DNA from: Candidatus Hydrogenedentota bacterium
Lineage (GTDB): Bacteria > Hydrogenedentota > Hydrogenedentia > Hydrogenedentales > JAEUWI01
Direction: 5' to 3'
DNA: 64,000 nucleotides
Assembly (NCBI GenBank): GCA_016182605.1
Contig: JACPGE010000107.1
Location: forward strand, 1 to 64,000
The notes below the pieces were generated by a model, which saw nothing but the letters and a program-made list of their open reading frames with translations, did no database searches and was not told where the DNA came from. The translations under genes were made by a program, and so were the position numbers. Each line of letters opens with the position of its first letter. Positions within the stretch are counted from its first letter, which is position 1. Below are positions 14,628-43,446 of this stretch, piece after piece.

Positions 14628-16044
14628 TGCGGGTCCTTTGCGGCGTTGCCACGTCGAAATTGAGGTAGGTGGAGAGGGCTTCCTGGAGCGGCGGCTGCAC
14701 GTGCCCGGGGGTGATGTTTACGTGATGGCGGTGGCCGGTCTTTCCGATGTAGAGGAAGACCTCCTCCATATTGGGTATCTCGGCCACCCCCGCCACGCCG
14801 AAGAAATTCTTGTCGATGGGATCGCGGGTGACCTTGCCCTCGCCCAGATAGAACTTCAGCACGCCATCATCGGTAAGCATGTTGCTGAAGGTCATGTCCA
14901 TGGGCGCAATGCGGCCGACGTTGGGCCCGTAGGAACGATCGGGACCGAGAACGGTCTTGAGGATCTCGTGGTCGACGATCTGGCCGAGCCCGTCCATCAT
15001 GGAGGGGGGCAGCGGTCCGCAATGAAAGAGGATGCACTTGTCTTGCGCGTCGCCATAGTTGTTGTTCCAATCGAGGCAGGCCGCGGGGCTCGCGGAAGCG
15101 AGGCTGAGCGCATGCATGGCGACGGCACTGCCAACGTCGACCTCACAGGCGGCCTGGATACAGCGCTCGTTCAGTTCGCCCATGACGAGGCAGGGGGAGA
15201 TGCCGAGTTCTTCTTGCAGCTCGATCCAGCAGCGCAGGGCGAGCGCGCTGAGTTTGTACTCGTCGACGATCTCATCAACAATGACGCCCAGTTTGGCGAT
15301 GTTTTGGAAGGCCCAATCGGGCGCGCGTTTCCAATCGGAGAGATGGCGGAGCTTTTCGGCCTTGTCCTTGAAGGGCGCGGCCGCGGTGTCGATCGCCTTC
15401 ACGCGGGAGATGACACTGGACAGGTCGAGGGTCTCGACGGAGATGCCGTGTTTTTGCAGGGCGAGTTCATCGATGCGCACGGTCTTGAAGGCGGTGGTGC
15501 GCGCGCCGATGGCGCCGAGCACGAAGCGGCGCATGCCGTGAACGATGCGGCACACGCCGTCGAAATAGGCCACGTTCTCCCGGAACGCCGGTGTGGCGGG
15601 GTGGACGACGTGGGGTTTCAAGGCGGTGAATTGCACGCCATACTGCTTGAAGACGTCCATGATGGAAAACTTGCCGCAGAATGCGTCGCGGCGGTGCTCG
15701 GGGCCCATGTTGTGCAGTTCGTCGGGATAGGCCTGGATAAGGATGGGGACGCCGGCCTCGCGCAACGCGGCCACGGCGCCGGTTTCATCGCCAAAGTTGG
15801 GCAGCGAGAGGATCACACCGTGGAACGCTCCCCGCCGATCGCGGAGAAAGCGCGCGTATTGCTCGCCTTCCTCTGGCGTTTCGATGGCGCCGTGCTTCGT
15901 GGCCGCCTCTGGCATAAGCAACACCGTGTGCCCCATCGATTCCAGGACATTAACGAGTTCCTTGCGTGCCGTCTCCTGATGCGCGGCGGGAAAAAAGCCC
16001 CGGTTGGCGAAACACAGTGCGAAGGTCGATTTGCCGGTTTCCAT
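14611..16044 (-). CDS. L-fucose/L-arabinose isomerase-fold sugar isomerase
   Basis: 477 residues. It shows the three-domain layout of the fucose isomerase-like family. The N-terminus ALCFANRGFFPAA and a domain with GVILSLPNFGDETG and AYPDELHNMG (about residues 95-120) come first. A central metal-site region follows with LALRCWIELQEELGISPCLVMG-type sequence (Glu and Asp ligands) and CEVDVG. The C-terminal lobe carries CILFHCGPLP. It would interconvert an aldose and a ketose in the cytoplasm. The canonical FucI is about 590 residues, so this is a shorter relative; exact sugar unknown. It starts 25 bases after the kinase stop and overlaps the aldolase. Confidence 0.8.
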   Translation of the reverse strand: METGKSTFALCFANRGFFPAAHQETARKELVNVLESMGHTVLLMPEAATKHGAIETPEEGEQYARFLRDRRGAFHGVILSLPNFGDETGAVAALREAGVPILIQAYPDELHNMGPEHRRDAFCGKFSIMDVFKQYGVQFTALKPHVVHPATPAFRENVAYFDGVCRIVHGMRRFVLGAIGARTTAFKTVRIDELALQKHGISVETLDLSSVISRVKAIDTAAAPFKDKAEKLRHLSDWKRAPDWAFQNIAKLGVIVDEIVDEYKLSALALRCWIELQEELGISPCLVMGELNERCIQAACEVDVGSAVAMHALSLASASPAACLDWNNNYGDAQDKCILFHCGPLPPSMMDGLGQIVDHEILKTVLGPDRSYGPNVGRIAPMDMTFSNMLTDDGVLKFYLGEGKVTRDPIDKNFFGVAGVAEIPNMEEVFLYIGKTGHRHHVNITPGHVQPPLQEALSTYLNFDVATPQRTRNGNHQ

Positions 16045-16068
16045 GTGCTGGTCGCTCCCTTGAAAGAT

Positions 16069-17622
16069 TTAGCCGCCGGATCCGCCAGGCGCGGGCGCCG
16101 GGCGGTAGGTCCAGGACGGTGCATGGGTGTGTATGAAATCGCCCACAAGCGGCCACAGCGCTTTGTAGGCATGGAGACGTTCGGCATAGTGCTGCGCGCG
16201 GCCAGGATCGGGAAGCAGCTCGCCGGAGGGCCGCACGACGGTGTGCACGCCCTCTTCGAGGCTGGCATAAACTCCCGCGGCGTGGCCGGCCACGATCGCC
16301 ACACCGAGTGCGCCCGCTTCCGGCTGTTGCAGCCGGCGGATGGGGCGGTTGAAGATGTCGGCGTAAAGTTGCAGCCAGAGGGTGGATCGGCTTCCCCCGC
16401 CCACGGCGCGGAGTTCGTCGATGGCGATCCCGATCTCGGGAAGTCCGGCGAGGCTCTCTTGCAGGCTGAAGGCGATGCCTTCGAGGATGCCCTTAAGCAA
16501 TTCGCCGCGATGGGTCTCCAGCCGGAGCCCGATGATCACGGCGCGGGAATCGGCAATGAAGTGCGGGGCGCCGGTGCCGGTGAAGTGCGGCAGACACAGC
16601 ACGCTGGAGGGGTCTCGGGGCATCTCCGCAAGCAGTTGCTCGTAAACTTCGCCGCCCTCCACAAGGGCGCGTTCGTGGGCTTCGCGCGCACAGACGTTGC
16701 GGAACCACTGCATGATGGAACCGCCTGGATTGTAGATGAAGGAAACGAACTGGCCGGGGGCGGCGGCATGTTCGAGATTCAGACCGCGCGCGCGGAACAA
16801 GCCGGGGCCGGGCCGTGTGTGGAAGGTGGGCACGATGATGTGGAAGGTGCCCATGCCGAGCATGGCCTGGCCATCGGCGAGGACGCCCGCGCCCAGCGCA
16901 TTGGCGCATTGATCGTGGGCGCCGGCGATCAGGAGCGTTTCCGGCGGTAGATGGAGTTCATGCGCCATCGCGGGAGCCACGCTGCCAATCACCGTTCCCG
17001 TGGGAATGGGCATTGCAAACTTTTCGGGGTCGAGCGCGGCATGCGCGAAGATGCGTTCAGACCAGGCCTCGCGGTTCACATCGAAGAGGAGCGAGCGATT
17101 GACCAGGGAATAGTCGACCCGTGCCTCGCCGCCGAGCATGTAGGGCACAAAACTGCCCCAGTGGAGAAACTTGTGGGTGGCGCGATAGAGGTCCGGCTGG
17201 CGATCGCGGATCCACATGAGTTTCGTGAGGCTGTAGTGATTGCCGAGCACGTTGCCAGTGATAGTGTACCACTCCTCCTCCGGAATCGCGGCGCGGAGCA
17301 ATTCGAGATAGTCCGCACCGCGCACATCATCACTCAACAACGAGGGCCCCAGGATCCTCCGGTCTTTCGAAACGGGCACCATCGCCTCGCCGAGCGATGC
17401 GACCGCCAGCGCCAGGATCGGATCGCGGCCCTGCTTCGATGCGGCGGCGGCGATGACCTCCTTCACCTTGTGCCAGACCTCGTGCGCGTCCAGTTCGGAC
17501 CAGCCGTCGCGGGGGCGCTGAACGGCGTACTCGCGGTAGGCCGAGGCGATGACGCCGCCCTCCGCATCAAAGAGGACGGCCTTGCAGCCGGTTGTGCCCA
17601 CATCCACGCCCAGAATACTCAT
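16069..17622 (-). CDS. FGGY-family carbohydrate kinase
   Basis: 517 residues. It has the ASKHA-fold ATPase with GVDVGTTGCKAVLFD (phosphate 1), WGSFVPYMLGG, the catalytic Asp in GAHDQCANALGAG, and AVGGGSRSTLWLQLYADIF (adenosine motif) near the C-terminus. It is closest by eye to xylulokinase/fuculokinase-type members. It phosphorylates a ketose or polyol. It is in operon with the upstream sulfatase (70-base gap) and the downstream isomerase and aldolase, so its substrate is likely the isomerase product. The tail (PAPAPGGSGG) is low complexity. Confidence 0.87.
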   Translation of the reverse strand: MSILGVDVGTTGCKAVLFDAEGGVIASAYREYAVQRPRDGWSELDAHEVWHKVKEVIAAAASKQGRDPILALAVASLGEAMVPVSKDRRILGPSLLSDDVRGADYLELLRAAIPEEEWYTITGNVLGNHYSLTKLMWIRDRQPDLYRATHKFLHWGSFVPYMLGGEARVDYSLVNRSLLFDVNREAWSERIFAHAALDPEKFAMPIPTGTVIGSVAPAMAHELHLPPETLLIAGAHDQCANALGAGVLADGQAMLGMGTFHIIVPTFHTRPGPGLFRARGLNLEHAAAPGQFVSFIYNPGGSIMQWFRNVCAREAHERALVEGGEVYEQLLAEMPRDPSSVLCLPHFTGTGAPHFIADSRAVIIGLRLETHRGELLKGILEGIAFSLQESLAGLPEIGIAIDELRAVGGGSRSTLWLQLYADIFNRPIRRLQQPEAGALGVAIVAGHAAGVYASLEEGVHTVVRPSGELLPDPGRAQHYAERLHAYKALWPLVGDFIHTHAPSWTYRPAPAPGGSGG

Positions 17623-17691
17623 TGCGGCGACTGCCTCCCGGCGTTGTTGAAGCCCGAAACACTTGGGCGTGTTCTGGCGTGTCTGGATCCG

Positions 17692-19347
17692 TTATTGCGC
17701 ATCTGCCGCCGCGCGTTTCTCTTGATTCAGCCGGTACGTGGGCAGCAGATCCTCCCAATCTTTCACGGCGTGGCTGTCCGCCCACTGGTGATAGCCAGCG
17801 CTCAATTCGCGGACCTTTTCGGGCATGCTGGAGGCCAGGTTATGGAGTTCCACGGGGTCGGCCGTCATGTCGTAGAGTTCCCATTCGTTGGAGGCCCACG
17901 TCACCTCGTCGAGCGAGAGGTGCATGCCCCAGTTGGATTTGCAGGAGACCAGTTTCCACCGGCCTGCGCGCACGGCACGGTTGCCTTCATGCTCCCAATA
18001 GAGCGGGGCGCGCCGTTCCAGGCGATCGCCGCGAAGGATCGGCAGCAGCGACTGGCCTTCGAACGGCGGAATGGCCTGGCCGCCGAAGGTCTCGGGATAG
18101 TGCGCGCCCGCGGCCTCCACACAGGTGGCCATGAGGTCGATGACGTGTCCCACGTCGTCCACCAGCGTACCGTGAAGCCGCTCTGGTATGACCGCGGGCC
18201 AGCGCACGATGCAGGGGGTGCGAATGCCGCCTTCGTGGGCCCAGCGCTTGTAGAGGCGAAACGGCGTGTTGCTCGCATTGGCCCATGGCGCATCGACCGT
18301 GTGAAACGATGTCTCCGGCCCCGGGGGCACATCGGGCGTGAGGTGAAGCGGCTCCGGTGTGCCGCCATTGTCGGAGAGAAAGAGGATAAGCGTGTTGGCT
18401 TCCTTGCCGGAAGCGTGAACGGCATCGAGCACCCGGCCGATATTTTGATCCATGCTGTCGATCATGGCGGCATAGACCGCCATGCTGAGATCCCAGCTAT
18501 CCTTGTTTTCTACTTCTTCCCAGGGCGGCACGGCGCCGTCGCGCGGACTCAAGGCGAGGCTGTCATCGAAAATGCCGAGTTCTTTTTGACGATTCAGGCG
18601 GTGCTGACGCAGCGCGTCCCATCCGTCCATATACTTTCCGCGGTATTTCTCGATGCCGGCCGCCCGGGCTTGCAAGGGGAAATGCGGCGCGGTATAGGCG
18701 AGGTAAAGGAAGTAGGGCTTGTCCTGTTGCGTGGCGGACCGGATGTATTCGATGGCGTGCCCGGAGAGGGCCTCGGTAAGGTAGTAGTCGCCGGGCTCTT
18801 GCTCAATCAGGTCGTTGTTCCGCGCGAGCATGGAGAACGGCCCCACCTTGAAGAAGTTCGCGGCGCCGTGCACGATGCCGTAGAAATCGTCGAAGCCGCG
18901 ATCATGGGGCCAGGAGCCGCGCTCCATCGCCACATGCCACTTGCCCGACATGAAGGTTTGATAGCCCGCGGGCTTCAGGACCTCCGCAATGGTGACGCAA
19001 CTGCGGTTCAGCGCGCCGGTGTAGCCCGGCTCGCCATAATTGAACTCCCGGTCGGCCATGTGCCCCACGCCGGTCTGGTGGGGGTAAAGCCCGGTCAGGA
19101 GCGCCGCGCGGGACGGGCAGCAACGCGATGCGTTGTAGAATTGGCGGAAGCGAATGCCGCCGTTGGCCAGGCGATCGAGGTTGGGAGTGTCGACCTCACT
19201 GCCATAACAGCCGATATCGGAGTAGCCAAGATCATCGGCGAGGATCACGATGATATTGGGCCGATCCGCGGCATGCACCGGGAGCGCGGCGAGGCCAAGC
19301 AATGCGGCGGCGCAAAGTGTTTGCAGCACGAGAATAGAAAGATACAT
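17692..19347 (-). CDS. Secreted arylsulfatase-type sulfatase (S1 family)
   Basis: 551 residues from the ATG at 19347. A signal peptide (ILVLQTLCAAALLGLAALP, ending VHAA) precedes the alkaline-phosphatase-like fold. The metal site is NIIVILADDLGYSDIGCYGS. The formylglycine motif is CCPSR (Cys about 76 converted by a formylglycine-generating enzyme not in this window). LFLSDNGG-type (LILFLSDNGGTPEP), GHxxD-like and LVSCKSNWG segments follow. It removes sulfate esters, probably from a polysaccharide or oligosaccharide in the periplasm or outside. It is the first gene of a four-gene minus operon with kinase, isomerase and aldolase. The Shine-Dalgarno is weak, and an in-frame upstream start (19455) would hide the signal peptide. 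Confidence 0.9.
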   Translation of the reverse strand: MYLSILVLQTLCAAALLGLAALPVHAADRPNIIVILADDLGYSDIGCYGSEVDTPNLDRLANGGIRFRQFYNASRCCPSRAALLTGLYPHQTGVGHMADREFNYGEPGYTGALNRSCVTIAEVLKPAGYQTFMSGKWHVAMERGSWPHDRGFDDFYGIVHGAANFFKVGPFSMLARNNDLIEQEPGDYYLTEALSGHAIEYIRSATQQDKPYFLYLAYTAPHFPLQARAAGIEKYRGKYMDGWDALRQHRLNRQKELGIFDDSLALSPRDGAVPPWEEVENKDSWDLSMAVYAAMIDSMDQNIGRVLDAVHASGKEANTLILFLSDNGGTPEPLHLTPDVPPGPETSFHTVDAPWANASNTPFRLYKRWAHEGGIRTPCIVRWPAVIPERLHGTLVDDVGHVIDLMATCVEAAGAHYPETFGGQAIPPFEGQSLLPILRGDRLERRAPLYWEHEGNRAVRAGRWKLVSCKSNWGMHLSLDEVTWASNEWELYDMTADPVELHNLASSMPEKVRELSAGYHQWADSHAVKDWEDLLPTYRLNQEKRAAADAQ

Positions 19348-19632
19348 CGGCAATTTTAGCCTTTTTTTGCCGCGAAGGAGCGCCTTGCGCGTAACCTTTG
19401 CGCCGTTTTCGGTGTAAATTGGCCGGCTTGGATCGTTTGCAGCCGGGCCGGACAATTAGGGATCGTAGTTTTGTCCACGGCGCCCACCGCAGCCCGTTAT
19501 TATTCCATAAGTCTATTGATTTAAGCCAGTTAACTATAGACGATGGAGCGCAGACGAAGTGAAGTGGCGTTCCTGTTGTCCATGCGGCGGTGCAATTCCG
19601 AGCGTCCGCCGGCAAACACTTAATCCAAAAGC

Positions 19633-20934: not shown

Positions 20935-21804
20935 TTACAGGCCGCGCCAGTCTTTCCGGAAAGGCAGCGGGCTCTGGCCTTTTACTTTCTTGAAGGCCTT
21001 CGAAAAATGCAGCGGATCCTCAAAGCCCACACGCCGCGCGATCTCACCCACCGAAAGACTGGATGTCCGCAACAGTTCTCCCGCGCGATCCATTTTGTAG
21101 CCCGCCACGAATTGGGCGGGGGACATGCCATAGTGACGCATGAAGAGCCGCCGCACCGTGGCCAGTGAGCAGCGACCCACGCCAGCAAGCACCTCCAGCC
21201 GGATGCTCTCCCCCACACGCGCTTCGATGCAGGCCACCATGCGCTCGAGTTGGCCAGGCGCATCTTCATGGCGCACCCGCGCGCCCGTTGCACCGTCTCT
21301 CAGTTCCATCACCAGCGCCTCCGCCATGCCGCGGCAGAATTGCTCGTCCGGTCCACGCTCGACGAAGCGCATGGCAATGTATTCCGCAAGATGTTCCAGG
21401 GGTCTGCGCTGTTTGAAATGGCCGCAAAGCAGACCATTGAGAAAGGGAAGGTCCACATCGCGCCGGAAGGCCCGGTGGGCCAGGGGATGATCGGAGTGAT
21501 GTGCGACTTCGAAGACCGCCTCGACCCCGGGGTCGTGATACGGAAGCCAATGGATGGCGCCCACCAGAAGCGGGTCTTCCGGTTGCGGCCGGTAATCAAT
21601 CGCATGCGCCCAGGGCAGCACGGCGAAGCATCCCGGTTCGAAGGGGAGATCCTGACCGTTCACGCGGATGCTTCCGCGGCCCTGCCGGCACCATAGCAGC
21701 ATGCGGCTCTCCACCCGGGGATGACGGATGCGTTCGTGGGGCGCGAACTGCCACCAGTTCGCGTGCACAATTATGGGGCTCAACGGCGTGACGTTTTTTA
21801 ACAT
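20935..21804 (-). CDS. AraC-family transcription regulator
   Basis: 289 residues. The N-terminal half is a cupin-like sensor (LLWCRQGRGSIRVNGQ, LPFEPGCFAVLPW). The C-terminal hundred residues carry the two AraC helix-turn-helix motifs: LEVLAGVGRCSLATVRRLFM, and SVGEIARRVGFEDPLHFSKA with KKVKGQSPLPFRK. Such proteins usually activate sugar genes. It diverges from the PhyH gene at 21906 with a 101-base gap containing paired CCATGTT elements. No ribosome site is obvious before the ATG. Confidence 0.92.
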   Translation of the reverse strand: MLKNVTPLSPIIVHANWWQFAPHERIRHPRVESRMLLWCRQGRGSIRVNGQDLPFEPGCFAVLPWAHAIDYRPQPEDPLLVGAIHWLPYHDPGVEAVFEVAHHSDHPLAHRAFRRDVDLPFLNGLLCGHFKQRRPLEHLAEYIAMRFVERGPDEQFCRGMAEALVMELRDGATGARVRHEDAPGQLERMVACIEARVGESIRLEVLAGVGRCSLATVRRLFMRHYGMSPAQFVAGYKMDRAGELLRTSSLSVGEIARRVGFEDPLHFSKAFKKVKGQSPLPFRKDWRGL

Positions 21805-21905: not shown

Positions 21906-22832
21906 ATGACTACGGCTACCGCTGGGTTTTTGGATGCGACTCCGCTCTTGGGGGATCCCGCTGCCTTACGTGCGCAGGCAGAGCAAGACGGCCTCCTATT
22001 CTTTAAAGGACTCCTGCCCCGGGATGCCGTGCTGGCGTTGCGCCTTCAGTTTCTCACGATCCTGGACCAGTACGGATTGCTCGATCGGGAAGCAGGGGTC
22101 GAGGCCGGGCTGGTAAATGCGGCGGCGGTGGAACGGATCGCCAAGGCCGATGTCACCTTCTGTGGCACGGGCGTTCCCTTCGACGTATACGCGAGCATTC
22201 AACGGCTGGAAGCCTTTCACCGGCTGGCGCACCACCCGCACTTGCTGCGCGTGTTTGAGACGCTCTTTGAGCGGCCCTTCTTCCCGCATCCGCGCAACAT
22301 CGCGCGCATCATGCTGCCGTCGCCGTTCAACACACCCACGCCGCCGCACCAGGATTTTCTGCATGTGCAGGGCACGACAGACACGTGGACAACGTGGGCG
22401 CCGATCGGGGACGTGCCGCGCGCGCTGGGCAGCCTCACGCTGATCCGGGGTTCTCACCGCAACGGACTCATGGACGTGAAAGAGGCCGAAGGCGCGGGCA
22501 ATCTGGAGACGTGGTTGTGCGGACCGTCGTTCGACTGGGTGGAAGGCGATTACGAAGCGGGAGACGCTGTAGTCTTCCACAGCTACACCGTGCACAAGGC
22601 GCTTCCCGCGAAGATCCGGGACCGGGTGCGCCTGTCGTGCGATTTCCGCTATCAGCCGCTGGAGCAGACGGTGGAGGAGAAATCGTTGCGGCCCCACTGC
22701 GACGTGCTGGAATGGGAAGAAATCTATGCGGGCTGGGAGCGGGATGACCTAAAGTATTACTGGCACCATCACGATCTGCGATACAGCCCGTGGGATGAAT
22801 CCATCCGCTGGCAGAAAGACAAAATCTGCTGA
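21906..22832 (+). CDS. Phytanoyl-CoA dioxygenase (PhyH) family protein 1
   Basis: 308 residues. Fe(II)/2-oxoglutarate dioxygenase of the PhyH type. The first iron ligands are in PPHQDFLHVQ (His148, Asp150). A distal His lies in HSYTVHKA (about His225 or His230), and the 2-oxoglutarate Arg is probably in RDRVRLSCDFRY. GAAGGAAG precedes the start. Cytoplasmic; it would hydroxylate a small molecule, but the substrate is unknown. It sits opposite the AraC gene and 64 bases before a hydrolase gene. A second, only distantly similar PhyH gene is at 25137. Confidence 0.82.
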   Translation: MTTATAGFLDATPLLGDPAALRAQAEQDGLLFFKGLLPRDAVLALRLQFLTILDQYGLLDREAGVEAGLVNAAAVERIAKADVTFCGTGVPFDVYASIQRLEAFHRLAHHPHLLRVFETLFERPFFPHPRNIARIMLPSPFNTPTPPHQDFLHVQGTTDTWTTWAPIGDVPRALGSLTLIRGSHRNGLMDVKEAEGAGNLETWLCGPSFDWVEGDYEAGDAVVFHSYTVHKALPAKIRDRVRLSCDFRYQPLEQTVEEKSLRPHCDVLEWEEIYAGWERDDLKYYWHHHDLRYSPWDESIRWQKDKIC

Positions 22833-22896: not shown

Positions 22897-23883
22897 ATGC
22901 AATTGCCTTGGACACGAACCGCAACGAAGTTCTTTGTTTCGGCCCTGATGTTTTCCCTCACGGCCATTCACACCGGATGCGGCGCCGATCAGGCGGCGCT
23001 CGATCCGTTCTTGCGCGGGCTAATGACGCCGTACTCCGATCTGAACGTGGAACTCGTTTCGATCCCGCCCAACGGCGTCCCCGCGTATGCGGTGTATCAG
23101 ACCGCGAAGAAGAACGACGTGAAGCCGGCGGTCATCGTGCTCCATGGCGGCGAGGCAGGCGATGCGGACAAGAACCAGCCCTTCACCTGGTACTGGCCGC
23201 AAGAGCTGGCGCGCCTGGGCTACTACGTCGTGTGTCCCGATGCGTGGGGATGCGGCGCGCATCCGGGTGTGGCGGACTTCAAAGCCATGACCGGCGCCAC
23301 ATTCTTCACGAAGCTCGCGCCACGGGTGCTCAACACGGCAGACGACAATCTGAAGATACTCGACTGGCTCCAGGAACAACCGGGAGTGGACGGTGAGAAG
23401 GTGGCCGTGATCGGCATCTCGGCGGGCGCGGTGACGACGCTTGCAACAGCCATGAAGAGCGATCGCTTTTCCACCTTTGTGGCGGTCTCGAGTTTGAGCG
23501 GCTTTCTCTCGAAGGACTGGGAGTCCTGCTGGCTCTACCAGTTGCAGGGCATCACGGACGTAAGTGCGCGATCGGAAGAAGAAGTGGCCGCAGTGAAATC
23601 CTTCGACGCCATCCACCATCTGGACGCCATCGCGCGGAAGCCGTTGTTGCTGGTGCATGGCGAAAGCGATCAACTGGCGCCGCCGCTCTTTGCCCAACGA
23701 CTCCACGAGAAGCTGTTGCCACTTTACGCGGAGCGCCCGGATGCCCTGCGCTACGCGGCGTTTGATGCCTATCCCATGCCAAAGCATCGCGCCCCGGAAA
23801 TGATTGAGCGCCTGGTAACCCACGCACCAAGCCCGGCCATGACCGCAGCGGTCATGGCGTGGCTGGAAAACCACCTCAAGTAA
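22897..23883 (+). CDS. Dienelactone-hydrolase-like alpha/beta hydrolase, putative lipoprotein
   Basis: 328 residues. A hydrophobic signal (FFVSALMFSLTAIHTGC) ends in a Cys (28) that could be lipidated, though His at -3 is not ideal. The alpha/beta-hydrolase core shows VIVLHGGEAG (oxyanion region), the nucleophile in GISAG (Ser about 175), Asp in VHGESDQLAP and His in MPKHRAPE. The substrate is unknown; carbohydrate acetyl esters or lactones would fit the context. The start at 22897 is chosen over an in-frame ATG at 22795 that would overlap the PhyH gene and bury the signal. Confidence 0.75.
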   Translation: MQLPWTRTATKFFVSALMFSLTAIHTGCGADQAALDPFLRGLMTPYSDLNVELVSIPPNGVPAYAVYQTAKKNDVKPAVIVLHGGEAGDADKNQPFTWYWPQELARLGYYVVCPDAWGCGAHPGVADFKAMTGATFFTKLAPRVLNTADDNLKILDWLQEQPGVDGEKVAVIGISAGAVTTLATAMKSDRFSTFVAVSSLSGFLSKDWESCWLYQLQGITDVSARSEEEVAAVKSFDAIHHLDAIARKPLLLVHGESDQLAPPLFAQRLHEKLLPLYAERPDALRYAAFDAYPMPKHRAPEMIERLVTHAPSPAMTAAVMAWLENHLK

Positions 23884-23936: not shown

Positions 23937-23967
23937 TTGACAAGTATAGGTTCTTTTGGTATTTTGC
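23937..23967 (+). promoter_or_regulatory. Promoter of the GHMP kinase-PhyH-GH51 operon (box f)
   Basis: TTGACA (23937-23942), 17 bases, TATTTT (23960-23965). GGTATT overlaps the -10 at the same distance from the -35 (21 bases) as in box h. The box itself is a poor match (TTTTGGTATTTTGC). The leader of about 95 bases holds a 7-bp hairpin (23986-24007). Confidence 0.6.
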
Positions 23968-24065: not shown

Positions 24066-25133
24066 ATGGGTGAACGAGACGGAGTGCGCTTCTTTGCGCG
24101 GGCTCCCGTGCGCATCGACTGTTCGGGGGGAGGCAGCGATGCACCGCCCTTCTGCACAGAGTACGGCGGGCACGTGGTGAACTTTGCCATCAATCACTAC
24201 GTGTACGCGTGTGTGGAGCCTCGCTGGGAAAGTGAAGCGGTGGAAATTACCAGCCACGATCTCGGCGAATCCGCGACGGCGCCCAACGCGCAGGCACTGG
24301 AGATGGGCGGCATGCTCAATCTCCTCAAGGGGGTGGTGCGGCGTTTGAATGCGCCCTTCGGGCTGCGGCTGACAACAGAATCGGACGTCTCTCCCGGGTG
24401 CGGACTGGGAGCATCCGGGGCGATGATGGTGGCCTGTCTCGCGGCGATGGATGCCGCGATGGGGACACGGCGCAGCCGTACGGCAACGGCGGCGCTGGCG
24501 AACGAGATAGAGCGCGACGATCTCGGGCTGTCCGGGGGCTGCCAGGACAGTTACGCGGCGGCGTGTGGCGGCATCAATTTCATCACCATACCAACCGACG
24601 GCCGCGTGCATTGCGAACCCATTCCGTTAAGCCCGGCGTCGCGCTTCACACTGGAGCAACACCTCTTGCTTGCGCATACGGGGGCGGTGCACCTGTCCTC
24701 CTCCATACACGACGATATCCGGGCGGACTATGCACTGCCTCAGAGTGCCACAAAAGACGCGATGCGCAAGCTCTCTTCGATCGCGGTTCAAATGCGCGCG
24801 GCACTGCTATCGGGCGAACTGGAACATTTCGCGGCGCTCATGAGCGGGAACTGGACCCAGCATAAACGATTGCACCCGAGTTGCGAAGGCGTCACGCTTC
24901 GGCGCTTTCATGAACAGATGGCGCCTTACGTGGCAGGGGCGAAGACCTGCGGCGCGGGCGGCGGCGGCTGTGTGGCCCTCTTCGCGAAAGAAGGCCAGCG
25001 CAACGCGATCAAGGCGGCCTGCCACCTCGTGGGCGCGGATCTGCTGCCTTTCTCCATTGACGATACCGGAGTTCAGACCTGGCGGGTATCGAGCATCACG
25101 CCAGCACCAATGACCCTCTCAAAAGGAAGATAA
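24066..25133 (+). CDS. GHMP-family sugar kinase
   Basis: 355 residues. GHMP kinase: N-terminal RAPVRIDCSGGGSDAPPF, the ATP loop PGCGLGASGAMMV, and the C-terminal GAGGGGCVALF. The RIDxxGGxxD N-terminus is shared with the heptose-7-phosphate kinase (HddA)/fucokinase-like branch that phosphorylates sugars at the anomeric position or position 7. It is the first gene of a set with a PhyH dioxygenase (3-base gap) and a GH51 enzyme, so a sugar released by this locus is the likely substrate. The ATG at 24066 has AGGGCAGG upstream; the longer frame to 23937 would start inside the promoter. Confidence 0.82.
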   Translation: MGERDGVRFFARAPVRIDCSGGGSDAPPFCTEYGGHVVNFAINHYVYACVEPRWESEAVEITSHDLGESATAPNAQALEMGGMLNLLKGVVRRLNAPFGLRLTTESDVSPGCGLGASGAMMVACLAAMDAAMGTRRSRTATAALANEIERDDLGLSGGCQDSYAAACGGINFITIPTDGRVHCEPIPLSPASRFTLEQHLLLAHTGAVHLSSSIHDDIRADYALPQSATKDAMRKLSSIAVQMRAALLSGELEHFAALMSGNWTQHKRLHPSCEGVTLRRFHEQMAPYVAGAKTCGAGGGGCVALFAKEGQRNAIKAACHLVGADLLPFSIDDTGVQTWRVSSITPAPMTLSKGR

Positions 25134-25136
25134 ATC

Positions 25137-25979
25137 ATGAATACAGCATTGGCGGCCGTTCCAGACCTCGCGGGAGACTACGCCTTGAGTGTGCCCACCA
25201 TAGAGCGCTTCCGCAGTCAGGGGCACGCGGTCTTGCGCGGGTGCGCCGGCCGCGAAGACGTGCTCGCGTACCGCGATTACATCGCGGGCGTGGTCGAGCG
25301 CCTGAAATATGAAGCGCGGGGCGGCGTGTACAACACGAAGCTCGAAGAGCGGGACACCTACCACAAGGCATTTGTGCAACTTGAAAATCTGTGGACCCAG
25401 GATGAAGGGGTAAAACGCTTCACCTTCGCGCGCCGCCTGGCAAAGATCGCCGCGGAACTGCTGGGGGTGGACGGGGTGCGTCTCTACCACGATCAGGCCC
25501 TGTTCAAAGAGGCAGGCGGCGGGCATACGCCCTGGCATCAGGATCAATACTATTGGCCCATCGACAATCCGAACACGGTGACCATGTGGATGGCCCTGGA
25601 TGATTGCCCGATCGAGATGGGCTCCCTCGTGTTCGCGGATGAATCCCATACGGCGGGCTCGCTCGCTTCCTTGGCGATTTCGGATGAGTCGGAACGCGTG
25701 TTCCGGGACGAGGTGATACGCCGCGGGCTGCCGTTGAGCATCAACGAGATGAACGCGGGCGACGCGACGTGGCACTACGGCTGGACCCTGCACAAGGCTC
25801 CGGGCAATATAACGAACCGCGAACGGCGCGCCATGACCATCATCTACGTGGCCGATGGCGCCCGCGTTTCCGAGTTCAAAACGGATCGCCACCCGCGGGA
25901 GGCTTCGAGATGGCTGCCGGGCCTGCAGCCGGGCGACCTGGTGGACTCAGCACTGAATCCCGTGCTCTACTCCAAATAA
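25137..25979 (+). CDS. Phytanoyl-CoA dioxygenase (PhyH) family protein 2
   Basis: 280 residues. It has the PhyH iron site HTPWHQDQYYWP (His134, Asp136) and the distal His in WHYGWTLHKAPGN (His219), followed by the 2-oxoglutarate Arg in NRERRAMTIIYV. AAAAGGAAG serves as ribosome site inside the end of the kinase gene, and the genes are 3 bases apart. Coupling to a sugar kinase suggests it oxidises a sugar-derived or ester-linked compound; the substrate is unknown. Confidence 0.85.
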   Translation: MNTALAAVPDLAGDYALSVPTIERFRSQGHAVLRGCAGREDVLAYRDYIAGVVERLKYEARGGVYNTKLEERDTYHKAFVQLENLWTQDEGVKRFTFARRLAKIAAELLGVDGVRLYHDQALFKEAGGGHTPWHQDQYYWPIDNPNTVTMWMALDDCPIEMGSLVFADESHTAGSLASLAISDESERVFRDEVIRRGLPLSINEMNAGDATWHYGWTLHKAPGNITNRERRAMTIIYVADGARVSEFKTDRHPREASRWLPGLQPGDLVDSALNPVLYSK

Positions 25980-26013
25980 TCCACGGCAGGCGGACGCAAA
26001 GGACGCGAAGCCC

Positions 26014-27561
26014 ATGAGAAAGATTTGTTGTGCCCTGTGCACGGGCGCACTGTTGCTGGTTTTCTTGTCCACCACAAGCGCCGGTGCAGACGCGATCCAG
26101 ATTCAGATCGCGCCGGAACAGGCAGGCCATGTGATTCATCCGAATCTCTACGGCCAATTTGCCGAGCACGTGGGCGCCTGCATCTACGATGGCCTCTGGG
26201 TGGGTCCGGACTCCGGGATACCCAACGACGATGGTCTGCGCCTGGACACGCTCGAAGCCTTGCGCGCGCTGGAGCTTCCCGTCGTGCGCTGGCCGGGCGG
26301 TTGCTTTGCGGACACCTATCATTGGCGCGATGGCGTGGGACCGCGCGCGGAGCGGCCGCATCGGATGACCACCTGGGGCGAATTGGAGAGCAATGCCTTC
26401 GGCACGGACGAGTTTCTGCGTTTCTGCAAGCTAATCGGAGCACAGCCCTATCTCTGCGTGAATGTGGGATCGGGCACCCCGGAGGAAGCGCGGGACTGGG
26501 TGGAGTACTGCAACGGGACCCTCGATACCCCCAACGTAAATCTGCGCAAGGCGAATGGACATGACGCGCCGTATGGAGTGCGTTATTGGGGCATCGGCAA
26601 CGAGAACTGGGGTTGCGGCGGGAGCATGCGTCCCGAGTTTTATGCCGATGAGTTCCGGCGCTTCGCCACCTTTGTTCATCAGGCGGCAGGGCCCGAGGCA
26701 GAAATCTTTGCGTGCGGCTCCTACATCACGCGCGGCGCGTGGGACGAGCGCTTCCTCGCGACGATGGAGGATGCGAAGCACCTGGTGGACTACCTGGCGG
26801 TGCACTACTACGCCAACCAGAGCGTGCCGTCCGCGGACTTTCCAGACGAGACCTATCACAAGTTGCTGGCCGGCAACGTGGGGGAACTGGAGGCCTGCCT
26901 GGAGCGCACGGTCAATCTGCTGAAAACGCACCGGCAGGGAAAGCATGAAATCAAGATCGCGCTGGACGAATGGGGCGCCTGGTTCTCGGATGCCACGCTG
27001 GAGAAGGGCTTCCGGCAGCAGAACACCATGCAGGACGCCCTCTTTGCAGCGGCGTGCTTCCATGTCTTCCACCGCTTCGGAGAGCAGTTGCTCATGTCGA
27101 ACATGGCGCAGACCGCCAATGTCTTGCAGGCGCTGGTGCTGACCGAGGGCGCGCAGTTCCATGTGACGCCCACCTATCACGTCTATGAGATGTTCAAACC
27201 GCACCGGGGTGGACAATACATACCCGTGGCCTTGGAAGGGACGACCGAGATCCAGGCGCCCGCTGGCGTGTCGCGGCCGGGACAGTCCGTGTCCGCGTCC
27301 CTTTCCGCGGGCGGTGGCGCCTTGTTCGTTTCCATGCTCAATCTGGAGATCGCACAGGCTGCCACGGTTGCACTCAACGTGCCCGGCGCCTGGAAGCCCG
27401 TGCGTATGCGCCGGCTGGCAACGGGCGATCTCCGCAGTCATAACACCTATGCCGCGCCAGATCGGGTAACGCCCGAGGAACTCCCCCTCCCCGATGCGGC
27501 GGCCCTGGCTTCGTTCAGCCTGCCGCCCCAATCCATAACCACGGTGCTGTTCGAGAAATAG
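26014..27561 (+). CDS. Secreted GH51 alpha-L-arabinofuranosidase
   Basis: 515 residues. The signal peptide (ALCTGALLLVFLSTTSAGA) is followed by the GH51 TIM barrel: LYGQFAEHVGACIYDGLW, VVRWPGGCFADTYHWRDGVG, the acid/base Glu197 in GIGNENWG and the nucleophile Glu319 in IALDEWGAW. The C-terminal jelly roll ends in SITTVLFEK. It releases terminal L-arabinofuranose from arabinan, arabinoxylan or arabinogalactan outside the cytoplasm. It follows the PhyH gene by 34 bases and is likely in the kinase operon. It converges with the symporter gene, 5 bases away. Confidence 0.93.
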   Translation: MRKICCALCTGALLLVFLSTTSAGADAIQIQIAPEQAGHVIHPNLYGQFAEHVGACIYDGLWVGPDSGIPNDDGLRLDTLEALRALELPVVRWPGGCFADTYHWRDGVGPRAERPHRMTTWGELESNAFGTDEFLRFCKLIGAQPYLCVNVGSGTPEEARDWVEYCNGTLDTPNVNLRKANGHDAPYGVRYWGIGNENWGCGGSMRPEFYADEFRRFATFVHQAAGPEAEIFACGSYITRGAWDERFLATMEDAKHLVDYLAVHYYANQSVPSADFPDETYHKLLAGNVGELEACLERTVNLLKTHRQGKHEIKIALDEWGAWFSDATLEKGFRQQNTMQDALFAAACFHVFHRFGEQLLMSNMAQTANVLQALVLTEGAQFHVTPTYHVYEMFKPHRGGQYIPVALEGTTEIQAPAGVSRPGQSVSASLSAGGGALFVSMLNLEIAQAATVALNVPGAWKPVRMRRLATGDLRSHNTYAAPDRVTPEELPLPDAAALASFSLPPQSITTVLFEK

Positions 27562-27566
27562 TCTTC

Positions 27567-28982
27567 TCAGTGCGGCGCCGCGAGCCGTGCTGCGCGGCGC
27601 CGTTCGAGCTCGACACGCGCCTCCCGCACCTGCTTTTCCCGCACGGGATACACGAGTGCAATGAGGGAGGCAATGCCCAGAGGCAAAAGCGGGGCAAAGG
27701 CCAGGATCATCCGCAGCCGGTACACCGTCTCCCCGGTCTGCATGGTGGCGGTTTCATCGAAGTGGGCGAAGTGCTGCAGGAGTTGCGCAAAGCCCCACAC
27801 GCCGATGGGCGCGGCCATCTTGATGCAGAAGAACATGACCGCGGAGTAGGAACCCTCGCGCCGCGCATTGGTGCGCAGCTCGTCCAGGTCGACGAGATCG
27901 GCCACCATGGCCTGCGCGTACATGGAGGTTCCGGTGAAACCGACGGCGACGGGTACATTGAACAAGAGGGTGAGATAGGGCGCCTCGGGCGTCAGCAAGT
28001 ACCAACTGAAGAGCGGGGAAACGCAGAAGATGGAAACGCAGAACAGCATGGCGCGCTCTTTGCCCACGCGCAGGCCAAGCCCCGCGAGGAGCGGCACGGC
28101 GGCCATGGCGGTGAGATTGAACGCCAGGCCTTGCAGCATGAGCAGGAGTCCCGCGGCCTGGGAATCGCCGCCATAGACATGGTGGATGATGATGTAATTG
28201 CTGGCCTGAAATCCCAAGAGGGTGCCGAGGATAACCATGAAGATCATGGCCGCGAGCAACCAGAAGGCAGGATTGTGGAAGGTGGCGCGGAGTCCCGCAA
28301 TGAAGGGGACGGATGGCTGTTTCTGGGCTTCGGCGCTCTCCCGGGTGCCCCAGTAGGTGAGCGCCATGCCCAGAAAGCCCAAAATGGCAAAGCTGATCCC
28401 AACGATGGCAAACCCGGTGCGGTGCCCGCCGAAAATTTCGAGGCCGGCAAGAAACCAGCAAGACGCCGCCAATATCGCCGCGATGCGGTTCATAAAGGAG
28501 CGGTAGGCGTTGAGCCGCGTGCGCTCGTGGTAATCCATGGAGAGTTCGGCGCCAAGGCCGCTGTAGGGCACCATGAAAAAGGTGTAGAAGGTGAAGTAAA
28601 GGAAGGCGAGAACGGCGAGGTACCAGAAATACCCGTTCGAACTTAGGCCGGGCGGCGCGGCGCACATGAACGCGAATACGATGGCAAAGAAGAGCCCGCC
28701 AACGAGAATATAGGGCCTCCGCCGGCCCCATCGGCCGCGGGTGTTGTCCGAGAGGTGGCCGACCATGGGGTCGAAGATTGCGTCCCAAAGACGGGTGACG
28801 AGAAAGGCATTGGCGATCCAGGTCGCGGGCACCATGAGGATCGTGTTGTAATAGAGGAAGAGGTAGTTATTCGTGACTTCTTCGAGGATTCCGGAGCCGA
28901 AACCGCCCGCGCCAAAGGAAAGCTTGGTCTTCCGGCTCAACATCTGGTGATCTTCGGGACGATCGAACTCGTTGCTGCCCAC
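27567..28982 (-). CDS. GPH-family (MelB-like) sugar:cation symporter
   Basis: 471 residues with about 12 membrane segments. It shows the family N-terminal region LSFGAGGFGSGILEEV and the cation/sugar-site helix with DAIFDPMVGHLSDNTRGRWGRR (given as landmarks around residues 67-90; Asp residues correspond to the MelB cation site). The C-terminal tail is basic. It imports oligosaccharides or glycosides with Na or H. The GTG at 28982 is preferred because GTGGAGG lies 7 bases upstream; an internal ATG at 28943 lacks a ribosome site. It lies downstream of a DUF1559 gene and a strong hairpin. Confidence 0.87.
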   Translation of the reverse strand: MGSNEFDRPEDHQMLSRKTKLSFGAGGFGSGILEEVTNNYLFLYYNTILMVPATWIANAFLVTRLWDAIFDPMVGHLSDNTRGRWGRRRPYILVGGLFFAIVFAFMCAAPPGLSSNGYFWYLAVLAFLYFTFYTFFMVPYSGLGAELSMDYHERTRLNAYRSFMNRIAAILAASCWFLAGLEIFGGHRTGFAIVGISFAILGFLGMALTYWGTRESAEAQKQPSVPFIAGLRATFHNPAFWLLAAMIFMVILGTLLGFQASNYIIIHHVYGGDSQAAGLLLMLQGLAFNLTAMAAVPLLAGLGLRVGKERAMLFCVSIFCVSPLFSWYLLTPEAPYLTLLFNVPVAVGFTGTSMYAQAMVADLVDLDELRTNARREGSYSAVMFFCIKMAAPIGVWGFAQLLQHFAHFDETATMQTGETVYRLRMILAFAPLLPLGIASLIALVYPVREKQVREARVELERRRAARLAAPH

Positions 28983-29123: not shown

Positions 29124-30182
29124 CTAGAACTGATTGATCGCATCGGGGCCGTTTCCGGTCCAGATGGCCATCCATTCGCCGGCAAGAATGCCCCAATTGC
29201 CGCCGCCCAGTCCAGCGTCGTCCTTCGCGCCCACGGGATAATCCGCAAAGAGCTTGATGAAGCTCACGTGACCATCGAGGTAGAGCACGTTGGCCCCGCC
29301 GGGGACATGGTTGAAGGTGTTCAGTCCGGTAACGGCGGTCACCGTGATGCCATCGGGGCCCAACTGCGCGCCCGTGGACCAGGAGTCCATCATGAGCGGA
29401 ATGGTGCTCTGTGCCGCGGCGCTTCCGGACGGGTTATTGATGTCCGTGATGAAGAAGCGCTCGATGCCTTCGCGCTGCCGGTAGACCACATCAAAGGGAC
29501 GATAGACGTCGTAGGGCGGTCCCGCTTCCACCGCACCGGAGATCACGGTGAAGAGCAAATCCGCGTAACCATGCCCGGACAGTTCCCCTGCGCTGACGTC
29601 GAAGTCGAGGTCGTGCACCGCGGTGCCTTCCAGCTTGTCCGCGAGGGTGTAGGTCTGGGTGCAATCGGCCGCAACGGTGTAGCGCTGGGTTCCGGGCGAA
29701 CCGAGAACGCCGGCCGCGAACCACGCCGCGCCGTTGCCCGCGAGGAAGGAGGCCCAGTCGGCCGCGGCCCACGCGAAGTAGAAGTAGTTGTCGGGATAGC
29801 CGAGCGCGGCGTTGTAGGTGCCCGCGTCGCAGTTGGCCACGACTTCCTGCATGTCCTCTTCCGTGCGCTTGCTTGCGGAGGAGGGGCAGAACTTCAGGTT
29901 GAAGTCGTTCCAGTATTCCGGATAGAGGGAGGCGGCATCAATACCGCCCGGGTTGGCCAGATAGCCCAGCGCCGGGGGGAACTTTTCGCCCTTCGATTCG
30001 TTCGAGTACATCTTCATGATGATGCCCCACTGCTTCAGGTTGTTCTGACAACTGGCGCGGCGGGCGGCTTCGCGCGCGCGGGCCAGGGCCGGCAGCAAAA
30101 TGGCAGCCAGAATACCGATGATCGCGATAACCACCAGCAGTTCGATTAGCGTGAATCCCTTTCGGGCTTGACACGTACGCAT
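29124..30182 (-). CDS. DUF1559 prepilin-like protein (copy 2)
   Basis: 352 residues. The pilin-type N-terminus is [20 protein letters not shown], with the processing Gly after a short basic leader, then the same [18 protein letters not shown] stretch as in copy 1. The C-terminal [14 protein letters not shown] and [14 protein letters not shown] are also shared, while residues about 75-240 differ almost completely. AAGGAGGT precedes the start. The role is not known beyond a pseudopilin-like envelope location. A box promoter (d) about 400 bases upstream faces it, linking it to the polysaccharide genes. Confidence 0.9.
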
Positions 30183-31098: not shown

Positions 31099-31148
31099 AA
31101 TCTCGTTTTCGCGCGCTCATGCCGGGCACTATAGCAAGGAGATACCCA

Positions 31149-33239
31149 ATGCGTGGATTGATCGTGATGCTGTTACTGCTGTCTGTGGGACTATGGACAT
31201 CCGTCGGCGCCGGGCAATCCGCCGCGCCGGCATGGCTGCGCCAGCCGCAGACTTTTGGCATGCTGCCGCTTGTTCCGGAGGAGGCGCAAGAGATGGGAAT
31301 ATCGGTGAACGGCATCTGGGCAGGATTTGGGGGGGGGCACCCGATACTCACTTTTCCGCCGTTTGTGAAGCGCGTGGGCGAGGCGTTTGGCGAGGACGCC
31401 GATGCGTTTGTGCGGGCGAATCATGAAGCCGGGATGCAGGTGGTGTGTGGCATCAACGGTATCGAAGGGATGCAACTCGTCCGGGCGGGGATCGAAAACT
31501 GGGAAGCACTGAGCTGCCGGAATGCGGACGGGGAAAAGGTGCTCTGGGGAAATCCCGAGGAACAGTGTTATGTGATGTGCACGAACAATCCGGATTGGGT
31601 GGCGTGGGAGATTGACTATGGGAAGCGCGGCATCGATCTGGGGGCGGATGTGGTCTTGATCGATACGCCGCAGGGGCAGGCGATCGCAAATCTGTTTGTG
31701 CGGGCGGGCTTTTGCAGCGCGTGCATGAATACGTTTCACGCGTACCTCGCGAAGCGGTATACGGAAGACGAACTGAAGACGCGCTTCGGTCTGGAGACGT
31801 GGGACAACGCGGCGGTAGTGCAGCGGCTGCGCATGCCGGTGGCGGCGCCGGACGAGGCAATGACCTATACAAAGCGCATTGAACGTGAACCGTTGTTTGC
31901 GGAGTATCTTCATTGCATGGAGGCCGCGAGTTTCGAAACGCGCAAGACGCTGGTGGAGGCGCTTCGGGATCACGCAAAATCGAAGAACAGACGCATCGCC
32001 CTATCCACCAACGCATTCAATCTCGGCACCAACAATCCTTTTGGCTATTGGGTGCGCGGGCTGATGTTTGCCGATCTGGTGGATTTCTTCGCCTATGAAA
32101 ACAGCCATTGCCCCGCGGGGCTGCCCTTTCAGGAGGAGCCGCTTCCCCGTGGAAAATGGGCCGCCTACCACCGGCTGGCGTACGCGGTAAAAGGCGTGCG
32201 CTCCGCGGCGGTCGTGGGCGCGGGCGCGCTGGGCAAGACCTACTTCCCGATGCTCGCCTCGGGAAAGACAGTGAACGCGTGGATGGGCGTGCTGGCGGCG
32301 GAAGCCTACGCGGCCAACGGCGCCTATATCATGTATTACTTTGACGCGCCCGCAAACGCGCGGCAGAGCATGTGGGCGTCGAGTGAAGCCGTGGCGCGCT
32401 TTGTGCGGGGCCACGAGGAACTCTACACCGGCGCATTGCGCAGCGGTTCCAGCGTGGCCGTGTTGGTGCTCGCCAACGATCGGGGCCGATCCATTCCCGG
32501 CGTCTATCCTTCCTATCTTGGTTTTCTCCAGGCCTTCACCGAAGGCAACTACCCCGTCGATGTTCTCTTTGCCGGCGACGATCAATTCATGAAAGACCAG
32601 CTCAGCGCCGGCGATCTAAAACCCTACGACACCCTGATTGTGCCCTCCCCCATCGACCCGACACCGCGTCAGCAACGGATCCTTCGCGAGTTTCTTGCGG
32701 CGGGCGGGCGGCTCGTGTGCCAGGAGCCGGAACGAATGGGAATCGACAGTACGCTCGAACCCACTTCCATGCCTGGATTGCGCGGGGAAGCGAAACGGGG
32801 AAGTGGCGTGTTGAGCGTGCTCGGTGGCGAAGTGACACCCACCTCGATGGACGACGCCGCATCTCGCTATTTCGCGGAAGCGCAGGCGGCGGATCGCAGC
32901 GCGATCTTCGGGATCGCAGAATCCCTGGGGCTCAAATCGCTCTTGCCGGATCGGCAGGATGGAACGATCGCGGCCTTCCCCATCGCGCAACCCGAGTCGC
33001 ATCGCTACGTGGTGCATCTCGTCAACTACGATGTGGACCCCGATGCCGACGAAGTGAGGCCGGTGGAGACGCTGCGCGTGGCGCCGGCGCTTCCCGCCAA
33101 CTTCGGCACGGTGAAGAGCGTTGAACTGCATCTTCCAGAATCCGCGACGCCGCAAGCACTGGAATTTGCGGCAGACGGCACGGTGCATATTCCGCGGATC
33201 GGACTGCACGCCACGCTCGTGATTCAGGCCGCGGGATAA
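31149..33239 (+). CDS. Secreted putative glycoside hydrolase with C-terminal GATase-like domain
   Basis: 696 residues. A signal peptide (LIVMLLLLSVGLWTSVGAG) opens the protein. Residues about 30-400 look like a TIM barrel of the GH-A/GH42-like kind (GISVNGIWAGFGGGHP, GIDLGADVVLIDTPQGQ, ALSTNAFNLG, VDFFAYENSH). Residues about 420-560 resemble the glutamine-amidotransferase-like trimerisation domain of GH42 enzymes (SVAVLVLANDRGRS, YDTLIVPSPIDPTP, GRLVCQEPERMG), and a small beta domain ends it. Family membership is not secure and no catalytic Glu pair is proven. AAGGAG lies 7 bases before the ATG. It is under box e. Confidence 0.7.
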   Translation: MRGLIVMLLLLSVGLWTSVGAGQSAAPAWLRQPQTFGMLPLVPEEAQEMGISVNGIWAGFGGGHPILTFPPFVKRVGEAFGEDADAFVRANHEAGMQVVCGINGIEGMQLVRAGIENWEALSCRNADGEKVLWGNPEEQCYVMCTNNPDWVAWEIDYGKRGIDLGADVVLIDTPQGQAIANLFVRAGFCSACMNTFHAYLAKRYTEDELKTRFGLETWDNAAVVQRLRMPVAAPDEAMTYTKRIEREPLFAEYLHCMEAASFETRKTLVEALRDHAKSKNRRIALSTNAFNLGTNNPFGYWVRGLMFADLVDFFAYENSHCPAGLPFQEEPLPRGKWAAYHRLAYAVKGVRSAAVVGAGALGKTYFPMLASGKTVNAWMGVLAAEAYAANGAYIMYYFDAPANARQSMWASSEAVARFVRGHEELYTGALRSGSSVAVLVLANDRGRSIPGVYPSYLGFLQAFTEGNYPVDVLFAGDDQFMKDQLSAGDLKPYDTLIVPSPIDPTPRQQRILREFLAAGGRLVCQEPERMGIDSTLEPTSMPGLRGEAKRGSGVLSVLGGEVTPTSMDDAASRYFAEAQAADRSAIFGIAESLGLKSLLPDRQDGTIAAFPIAQPESHRYVVHLVNYDVDPDADEVRPVETLRVAPALPANFGTVKSVELHLPESATPQALEFAADGTVHIPRIGLHATLVIQAAG

Positions 33240-43433: not shown

Positions 43434-43446
43434 TTGAAAGTGTCAC

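Follow-up and report, generated by a model that had tools for sequence, protein, structure and literature searches.

The only bacterial demethylase of a free methyl-sugar in the open-access literature that we searched is a marine cytochrome P450 with redox partners (PMC10033563, in the portion available). According to that portion, the marine loci group the P450 (CYP), its redox partners, an esterase and an alcohol dehydrogenase (ADH) of the FoADH/ZoADH type (structures 8h2a and 8h2b); the P450 is the demethylase of 6-O-methyl-D-galactose, and Zobellia lacking either the ADH or the P450 is impaired on this sugar while growing on galactose. In the available part of PMC12709175, FJS, PHYHD1 and other PF05721 enzymes O-demethylate 2'-O-methyl nucleosides at the ribose: the 2-oxoglutarate oxygenase hydroxylates the O-methyl carbon, and formaldehyde then leaves. 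Here we describe a 64,000-nucleotide stretch of DNA (the window; contig JACPGE010000107.1, positions 1 to 64,000) from the 6.76 Mb draft genome of a Candidatus Hydrogenedentota bacterium, in which the gene of a PhyH dioxygenase, PhyH2, is packed between those of a GHMP sugar kinase and a GH51 alpha-L-arabinofuranosidase-like enzyme. We propose, with a probability of roughly 0.52, that PhyH2 demethylates a methylated sugar as a single-component Fe(II)/2-oxoglutarate O-demethylase, and that in this locus the sugar so freed passes to the GHMP kinase.

PhyH2 and its relatives resemble both precedents in part. With the 6-O-methyl-D-galactose module of porphyran users (PMC10033563, in part), the relatives have in common the ADH, the esterase, the type of AraC regulator and the sugar-locus setting; the oxygenase there is a P450 with redox partners, whereas here it is a PhyH 2-oxoglutarate enzyme, and the window has no such ADH. 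With PHYHD1 and FJS (PMC12709175, in part), PhyH2 shares the PF05721 fold and the ligands, and O-demethylation at a sugar ring, shown for those enzymes, is what we propose for this one. However, PhyH2 is accompanied by sugar kinases and glycosidases instead of nucleoside genes, and its profile appears to lie nearer SnoK and MysH than PHYHD1 (78 bits for SnoK and 34 bits for PHYHD1 with the A1 profile).

The assignment of PhyH2 to PF05721 is clear (85.6 bits, cut-off 22), and residues H134, D136, H219 and R230 are invariant in 39 aligned sequences; we take the first three to be the HxD...H iron triad and the last to be the 2-oxoglutarate-binding arginine. A structural model with a predicted local distance difference test (pLDDT) value of 94.9 has the double-stranded beta-helix fold and matches SnoK/SnoN best, MysH, then EvdO2/AviO1 and PHYHD1. 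The nearest structures, SnoK/SnoN and the orthosomycin oxygenases (5epa, 5ep9 and 4xac; Z 29.2, 28.6 and 22.6, with a root-mean-square deviation of 2.5 over 242 aligned residues for SnoK), belong to antibiotic biosynthesis enzymes and are 20-24% identical to PhyH2. The window protein departs at only three of the columns that 90% or more of the 38 other sequences in alignment A2 share, which favours a kept function. Relatives are numerous: tblastn confirmed 578 in named genomes from many phyla, of which 80 were kept for the locus comparisons, and 12 of the 68 genomes in our phylum comparison set hold one at 1e-20, the close ones being 41-54% identical. The PhyH2 tree omits L172, which comes from the same genome as L119, and rows shorter than 180 residues; the gene caller overlooked some esterases and the L135 copy of PhyH2, which were recovered from open reading frames.

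An exchange of oxygenases is visible in two annotated Cytophagales plasmids, where a single PhyH occupies the place of the P450, ferredoxin and reductase. Microscilla pSD15 encodes an FAD oxidoreductase, a 2Fe-2S protein, a cytochrome P450 and an AraC regulator, then an ADH, a hydrolase and, later, two alpha-L-fucosidases; Emticicia pEMTOL04 encodes an AraC regulator, then PhyH, an ADH, a hydrolase and a fucosidase fragment. Between the two plasmids the ADHs are 68% and the AraC proteins 35% identical over nearly their full length. A Catenovulum plasmid with the ADH and hydrolase has neither oxygenase within 8 kb of them. In the main text of PMC10033563, as far as available, the words dioxygenase and phytanoyl are both absent.

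PhyH2 relatives are more widely linked to the dehydrogenase-esterase pair of the marine methyl-sugar loci. Relatives stand beside a zinc ADH followed by an esterase in Sphingobacteriales, Chitinophagales, Cytophagales and Acidobacteriota, and the ADH of locus L094 scores 525 bits with 8h2a and 505 bits with 8h2b, against 187 for the next solved ADH (the copy in L168 reaches 443 bits). Within the order of L094, this ADH occurs in 27 of 350 genomes; a PhyH2 relative (1e-60) is present in 26 of these 27 versus 41 of the 323 others, and in 17 of the 27 it is no more than 7 kb away from the ADH, where random placement expects about 0.07. The ADH label requires at least four changes on the PhyH2 tree, and the esterase adjoins the ADH in all 28 loci, G340 included. 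These ADH neighbourhoods are sugar-use loci, since the 124 neighbours scanned (proteins below 200 or above 800 residues being omitted from the tally) include 21 of the alpha-amylase family, 14 AraC regulators, 12 sugar MFS transporters, 8 LacI and 5 CBM20 proteins. No P450 appears beside the ADH in Sphingobacteriales among the families listed (25 of the 88 in the Pfam tally).

Sugar kinases form a further link. In Acidobacteriota the order URO-D, galactokinase-like GHMP kinase, PhyH2 recurs, with the kinase directly upstream of PhyH2 (L085, L086, L115, L119/L172 and L167); L085 groups with the Acidobacteriota carriers of this cassette on the PhyH2 tree. An SSS symporter mostly precedes it, recognized by phmmer in L167 and L172 and in L115 and L086 by eye. 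The two Flavihumibacter loci, L142 and L135, have a galactokinase gene some 5 kb upstream of PhyH2, in L142 within the order GalK-GalT-GalM-SSS-PhyH2-GH2 (GH2 assigned by Pfam; GalT, GalM and SSS by reading). The GHMP label amounts to three changes on the PhyH2 tree, the window being one of them, and scans of chosen PhyH2 neighbours found GH2, GH5-like, GH13, GH20, GH92 and Sugar_tr proteins. Two further arrangements were seen among these loci. In the Bryobacterales locus L115 (4167-8744), the cassette is accompanied by a full-length MtaB methanol-cobalamin methyltransferase (524 bits), so that methyl-transfer proteins sit beside the proposed demethylase. In seven Mucilaginibacter loci (L073-L075, L084, L087, L088 and L092), PhyH2 has a divergent AraC gene and is followed by convergent genes that by eye resemble EgtD/EgtB of ergothioneine synthesis.

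Several observations weigh against our proposal. The window's own genome has no ADH of the FoADH/ZoADH type (none at 1e-20), G390 has the ADH without PhyH2, and the Fisher p of 5e-20 for the association between ADH and PhyH2 overstates independence because the 350 genomes are related. A role for the ADH as formaldehyde dehydrogenase was tested and excluded, according to the available part of PMC10033563. A long branch (1.04) leads to the window PhyH2, whose neighbours on the tree are Sumerlaeota copies, and the copies nearest to it adjoin a flavoprotein and SucC instead of sugar genes; 43 of 79 PhyH2 relatives lack any co-directional neighbour within 220 bases. The window kinase is HddA-like, not a galactokinase, and our searches of the phylum, the named genomes and Sumerlaeota found no close kin. 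Finally, the PhyH2 loci examined in the phylum have neither a GHMP kinase nor a GH51 gene alongside, and the copies are scattered. In the Sumerlaeota loci L069 and L072, PhyH2 stands beside SucC (by eye and by Pfam, respectively), and in L069 it comes after a fumarate-reductase-like flavoprotein; this association may hint at succinate handling.

A link of PhyH to GH51, whose co-occurrence the initial annotation had offered as a check, is not supported. We found no relative of the window's GH51 proteins at any of the 80 PhyH2 loci (E 1e-5, up to 10 kb on each side) and none at the phylum loci examined, so PhyH and GH51 were rejected as a conserved pair. Nor did the comparisons across loci, phylum and Sumerlaeota yield a second instance of an HddA-like GHMP kinase with PhyH2 and GH51. 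One candidate, a truncated protein in L168 (order of G068) that follows PhyH2, SSS, ADH and esterase and by eye resembles a GH51 N-terminus, was not counted; Pfam reports only CBM_4_9 in it, and blastp against the window's GH51 proteins returned nothing. The idea of O-methyl sugar demethylation, also raised in the initial annotation, is partly supported, in kind, through relatives linked to the ADH-esterase pair, to galactokinases and to glycoside hydrolases and through the known PhyH ribose O-demethylases, whereas the check proposed there counts against its GH51 half. What began as a guess is now the leading explanation, at about even odds, on evidence outside the window.

Other readings of the same genes deserve consideration. 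PhyH2 might oxidize the sugar in another manner, by C-hydroxylation, epimerization or ring closure, with the kinase then activating the altered sugar. SnoK and SnoN (carbocyclase and epimerase) and the orthosomycin oxygenases are reported to carry out oxidations of this kind; SnoK and SnoN are the nearest solved structures by both sequence and fold, EvdO2/AviO1 are among the matches, and sugar-type neighbours would fit equally. We nevertheless regard this reading as unlikely, as it gives no reason for PhyH to stand where other loci have a demethylating P450, with the ADH, the esterase and the type of AraC unchanged. Somewhat less probable again is that kinase and PhyH2 form a biosynthetic pair whose product, a modified and activated sugar, would go into a small molecule or a surface glycan, with GH51 as a mere neighbour. 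The resemblance of the kinase to HddA (148 bits) and the placement of its 35% identical phylum relatives in clusters apparently for the synthesis of nucleotide sugars or surface polysaccharides speak for such a pair, but neither a nucleotidyltransferase nor an isomerase accompanies it, and the surroundings are catabolic, comprising GH51, the GPH symporter, an isomerase, an FGGY kinase, an aldolase, GH78 and GH38.

An aromatic decoration, either methoxy-aromatic or a hydroxycinnamate as proposed in the initial annotation, could also be the target instead of a sugar. The solved relatives of the L094 esterase include ferulic acid esterases, and FoADH and ZoADH favour aromatic aldehydes (PMC10033563, in part); yet, in the same available text, loss of the ADH and loss of the CYP each impair growth on 6-O-methyl-galactose, a sugar without any aromatic part, and the galactokinase neighbours indicate a sugar product, making this alternative improbable. 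Least probable of all is that the three genes share no pathway and were packed together by chance in a gene-dense sugar locus. Their combination was not found again, and the kinase scan of named genomes was empty; however, the spacing of 3 and 34 bases between genes that follow a single promoter-like site, and the recurrence of a GHMP kinase next to PhyH2 in two further lineages, make a chance arrangement highly doubtful.

Table 1. Features of the window around PhyH2.
Feature	Coordinates	Strand	Remarks
Class II aldolase, SftI/FucI-like isomerase, FGGY kinase, sulfatase	13704-19455	-	Catabolic set of ketose-phosphate type
AraC-family regulator, divergent from PhyH1	20935..21804	-	101 bases to PhyH1
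PhyH1, second PhyH dioxygenase, PtlH-like, other subfamily	21906..22832	+	PF05721
Alpha/beta-hydrolase lipoprotein, DLH/esterase-like	about 22897..23883	+	Start by eye; absent from the initial annotation
Sigma-70-like promoter, TTGACA-17-TATTTT, TG ahead of second hexamer	23937..23965	+	Consensus match only, 10/12
GHMP sugar kinase, HddA/fucokinase-like, 355 aa	24066..25133	+	Motifs PGCGLGAS, GGCQDSYAAACGG and GAGGGG present
PhyH2, Fe(II)/2-oxoglutarate dioxygenase, 280 aa	25137..25979	+	PF05721
Secreted GH51 alpha-L-arabinofuranosidase-like enzyme	26014..27561	+	PF06964; signal peptide by eye only
GPH/MFS_2 sugar symporter, convergent with GH51	27567..28982	-	

The gene order in the initial annotation, kinase, PhyH after 3 bases and GH51, is borne out in all families and coordinates (Table 1), as is a second PhyH gene divergent from the AraC gene. 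That the three co-directional genes form one transcript, as it also held, is likely from their spacing and from the promoter-like and terminator-like sites. Thus, kinase, PhyH2 and GH51 probably constitute a transcript of their own, because the promoter-like site lies 100 bases before the kinase and plus-strand terminator-like sites between 21700 and 27700 occur only inside the GH51 gene (26619 and 27309); PhyH1 and the alpha/beta-hydrolase lipoprotein probably belong to a separate upstream transcript. The promoter-like site is the sole sigma-70-like site on the plus strand of this interval and is weak on its own, because the interval holds two promoter-like sites where shuffled sequences give a mean of 1.3.

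The kinase matches PF00288 at 55.5 bits and carries three motifs (Table 1) that we take to be those of the GHMP family. Its best NCBIfam and PDB match is HddA, a D-glycero-D-manno-heptose 7-phosphate kinase alike in GHMP fold and motifs; however, the NCBIfam HddA score is far under the equivalog cut-off of 600, and no heptose genes were seen beside the window kinase. The best relatives within the phylum are 35% identical, and their clusters were named by reading the proteins. A single-protein scan of the named genomes with the kinase found no relative; relatives occur in 10 of 40 Sumerlaeota genomes (31-37% identity), with no PhyH within the flanks examined, and in seven plasmid records (29-35% identity). 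The GH51 protein matches PF06964 (Alpha-L-AF_C) at 116.5 bits, over its cut-off of 27, and NCBIfam ArfA at 219.5 bits, under the cut-off of 625.

PhyH1 (PF05721, 50.4 bits) is of a different subfamily from PhyH2, with PtlH as its nearest solved relative, so a common substrate for both PhyH proteins should not be taken for granted. Two PhyH genes within 4 kb are not trivial, because the whole genome has five above the PF05721 cut-off. Relatives of PhyH1 occur in two other genomes of the phylum at 59% and 55% (L058 in G067 and L059 in G042); in G067 the relative appears to neighbour a sulfatase and an enzyme of GH32 type.

The GPH symporter and AraC and GntR regulators surround the trio, with GH78, GH38 and another two GH51 genes at a greater distance. 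Counting the GH51 gene of the trio, a 25-kb span holds three genes for GH51 and one each for GH78 and GH38 (26014-27561 and 40266-45918 on the plus strand, 45928-47502 and 48092-50329 on the minus strand), a set that suggests a complex plant or algal glycan as the target. A classical arabinose operon was rejected, the FGGY kinase being XylB-like at 264.7 of 380 bits and the isomerase only SftI/FucI-like. These two and the aldolase all fall under their NCBIfam equivalog cut-offs. The sugar locus also encodes a 706-aa protein (31119-33239) without a Pfam family at 1e-5 and resembling a glycosidase by reading, and the window encodes two secreted proteins that by eye are pseudopilin-like (75-1127 and 29124-30182).

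In the pathway that we envisage, GH51 and the other hydrolases of the locus would free sugars outside the cell or in the envelope, and the neighbouring symporter would import them. PhyH2 would then oxidize the O-methyl group, with release of formaldehyde, and the GHMP kinase would phosphorylate the demethylated sugar at C1, by analogy with galactokinase and fucokinase. The gene order, the families, the conserved ligands, the predicted fold and the linkages of relatives are observed; we infer the reaction, its place before the kinase step, the substrate and the retention of the family reaction by the window copy. Our guess for the substrate, prompted by GH51, GH78 and the isomerase-kinase-aldolase set, is a methylated pentose or deoxyhexose.

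More tentatively, and at somewhat less than even odds, PhyH2 may represent a widespread, unnamed, one-gene family of 2-oxoglutarate sugar O-demethylases that replaces the three-part marine P450 in many non-marine bacteria and feeds GHMP kinases, with the window copy a divergent member in an arabinose- or deoxysugar-type locus. Among the titles and abstract openings returned by our searches of the open-access literature, we found no report tying PhyH to methylated sugars or their demethylation, to polysaccharide utilization, to GHMP kinase or to galactokinase. The glycans of plants, algae and microbes commonly carry methylated sugars; if our proposal is correct, one soluble 2-oxoglutarate enzyme would explain how other bacteria use these sugars. 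It would also give a function to hundreds of genes named just 'phytanoyl-CoA dioxygenase', and would provide a second system for learning the role of the required dehydrogenase.

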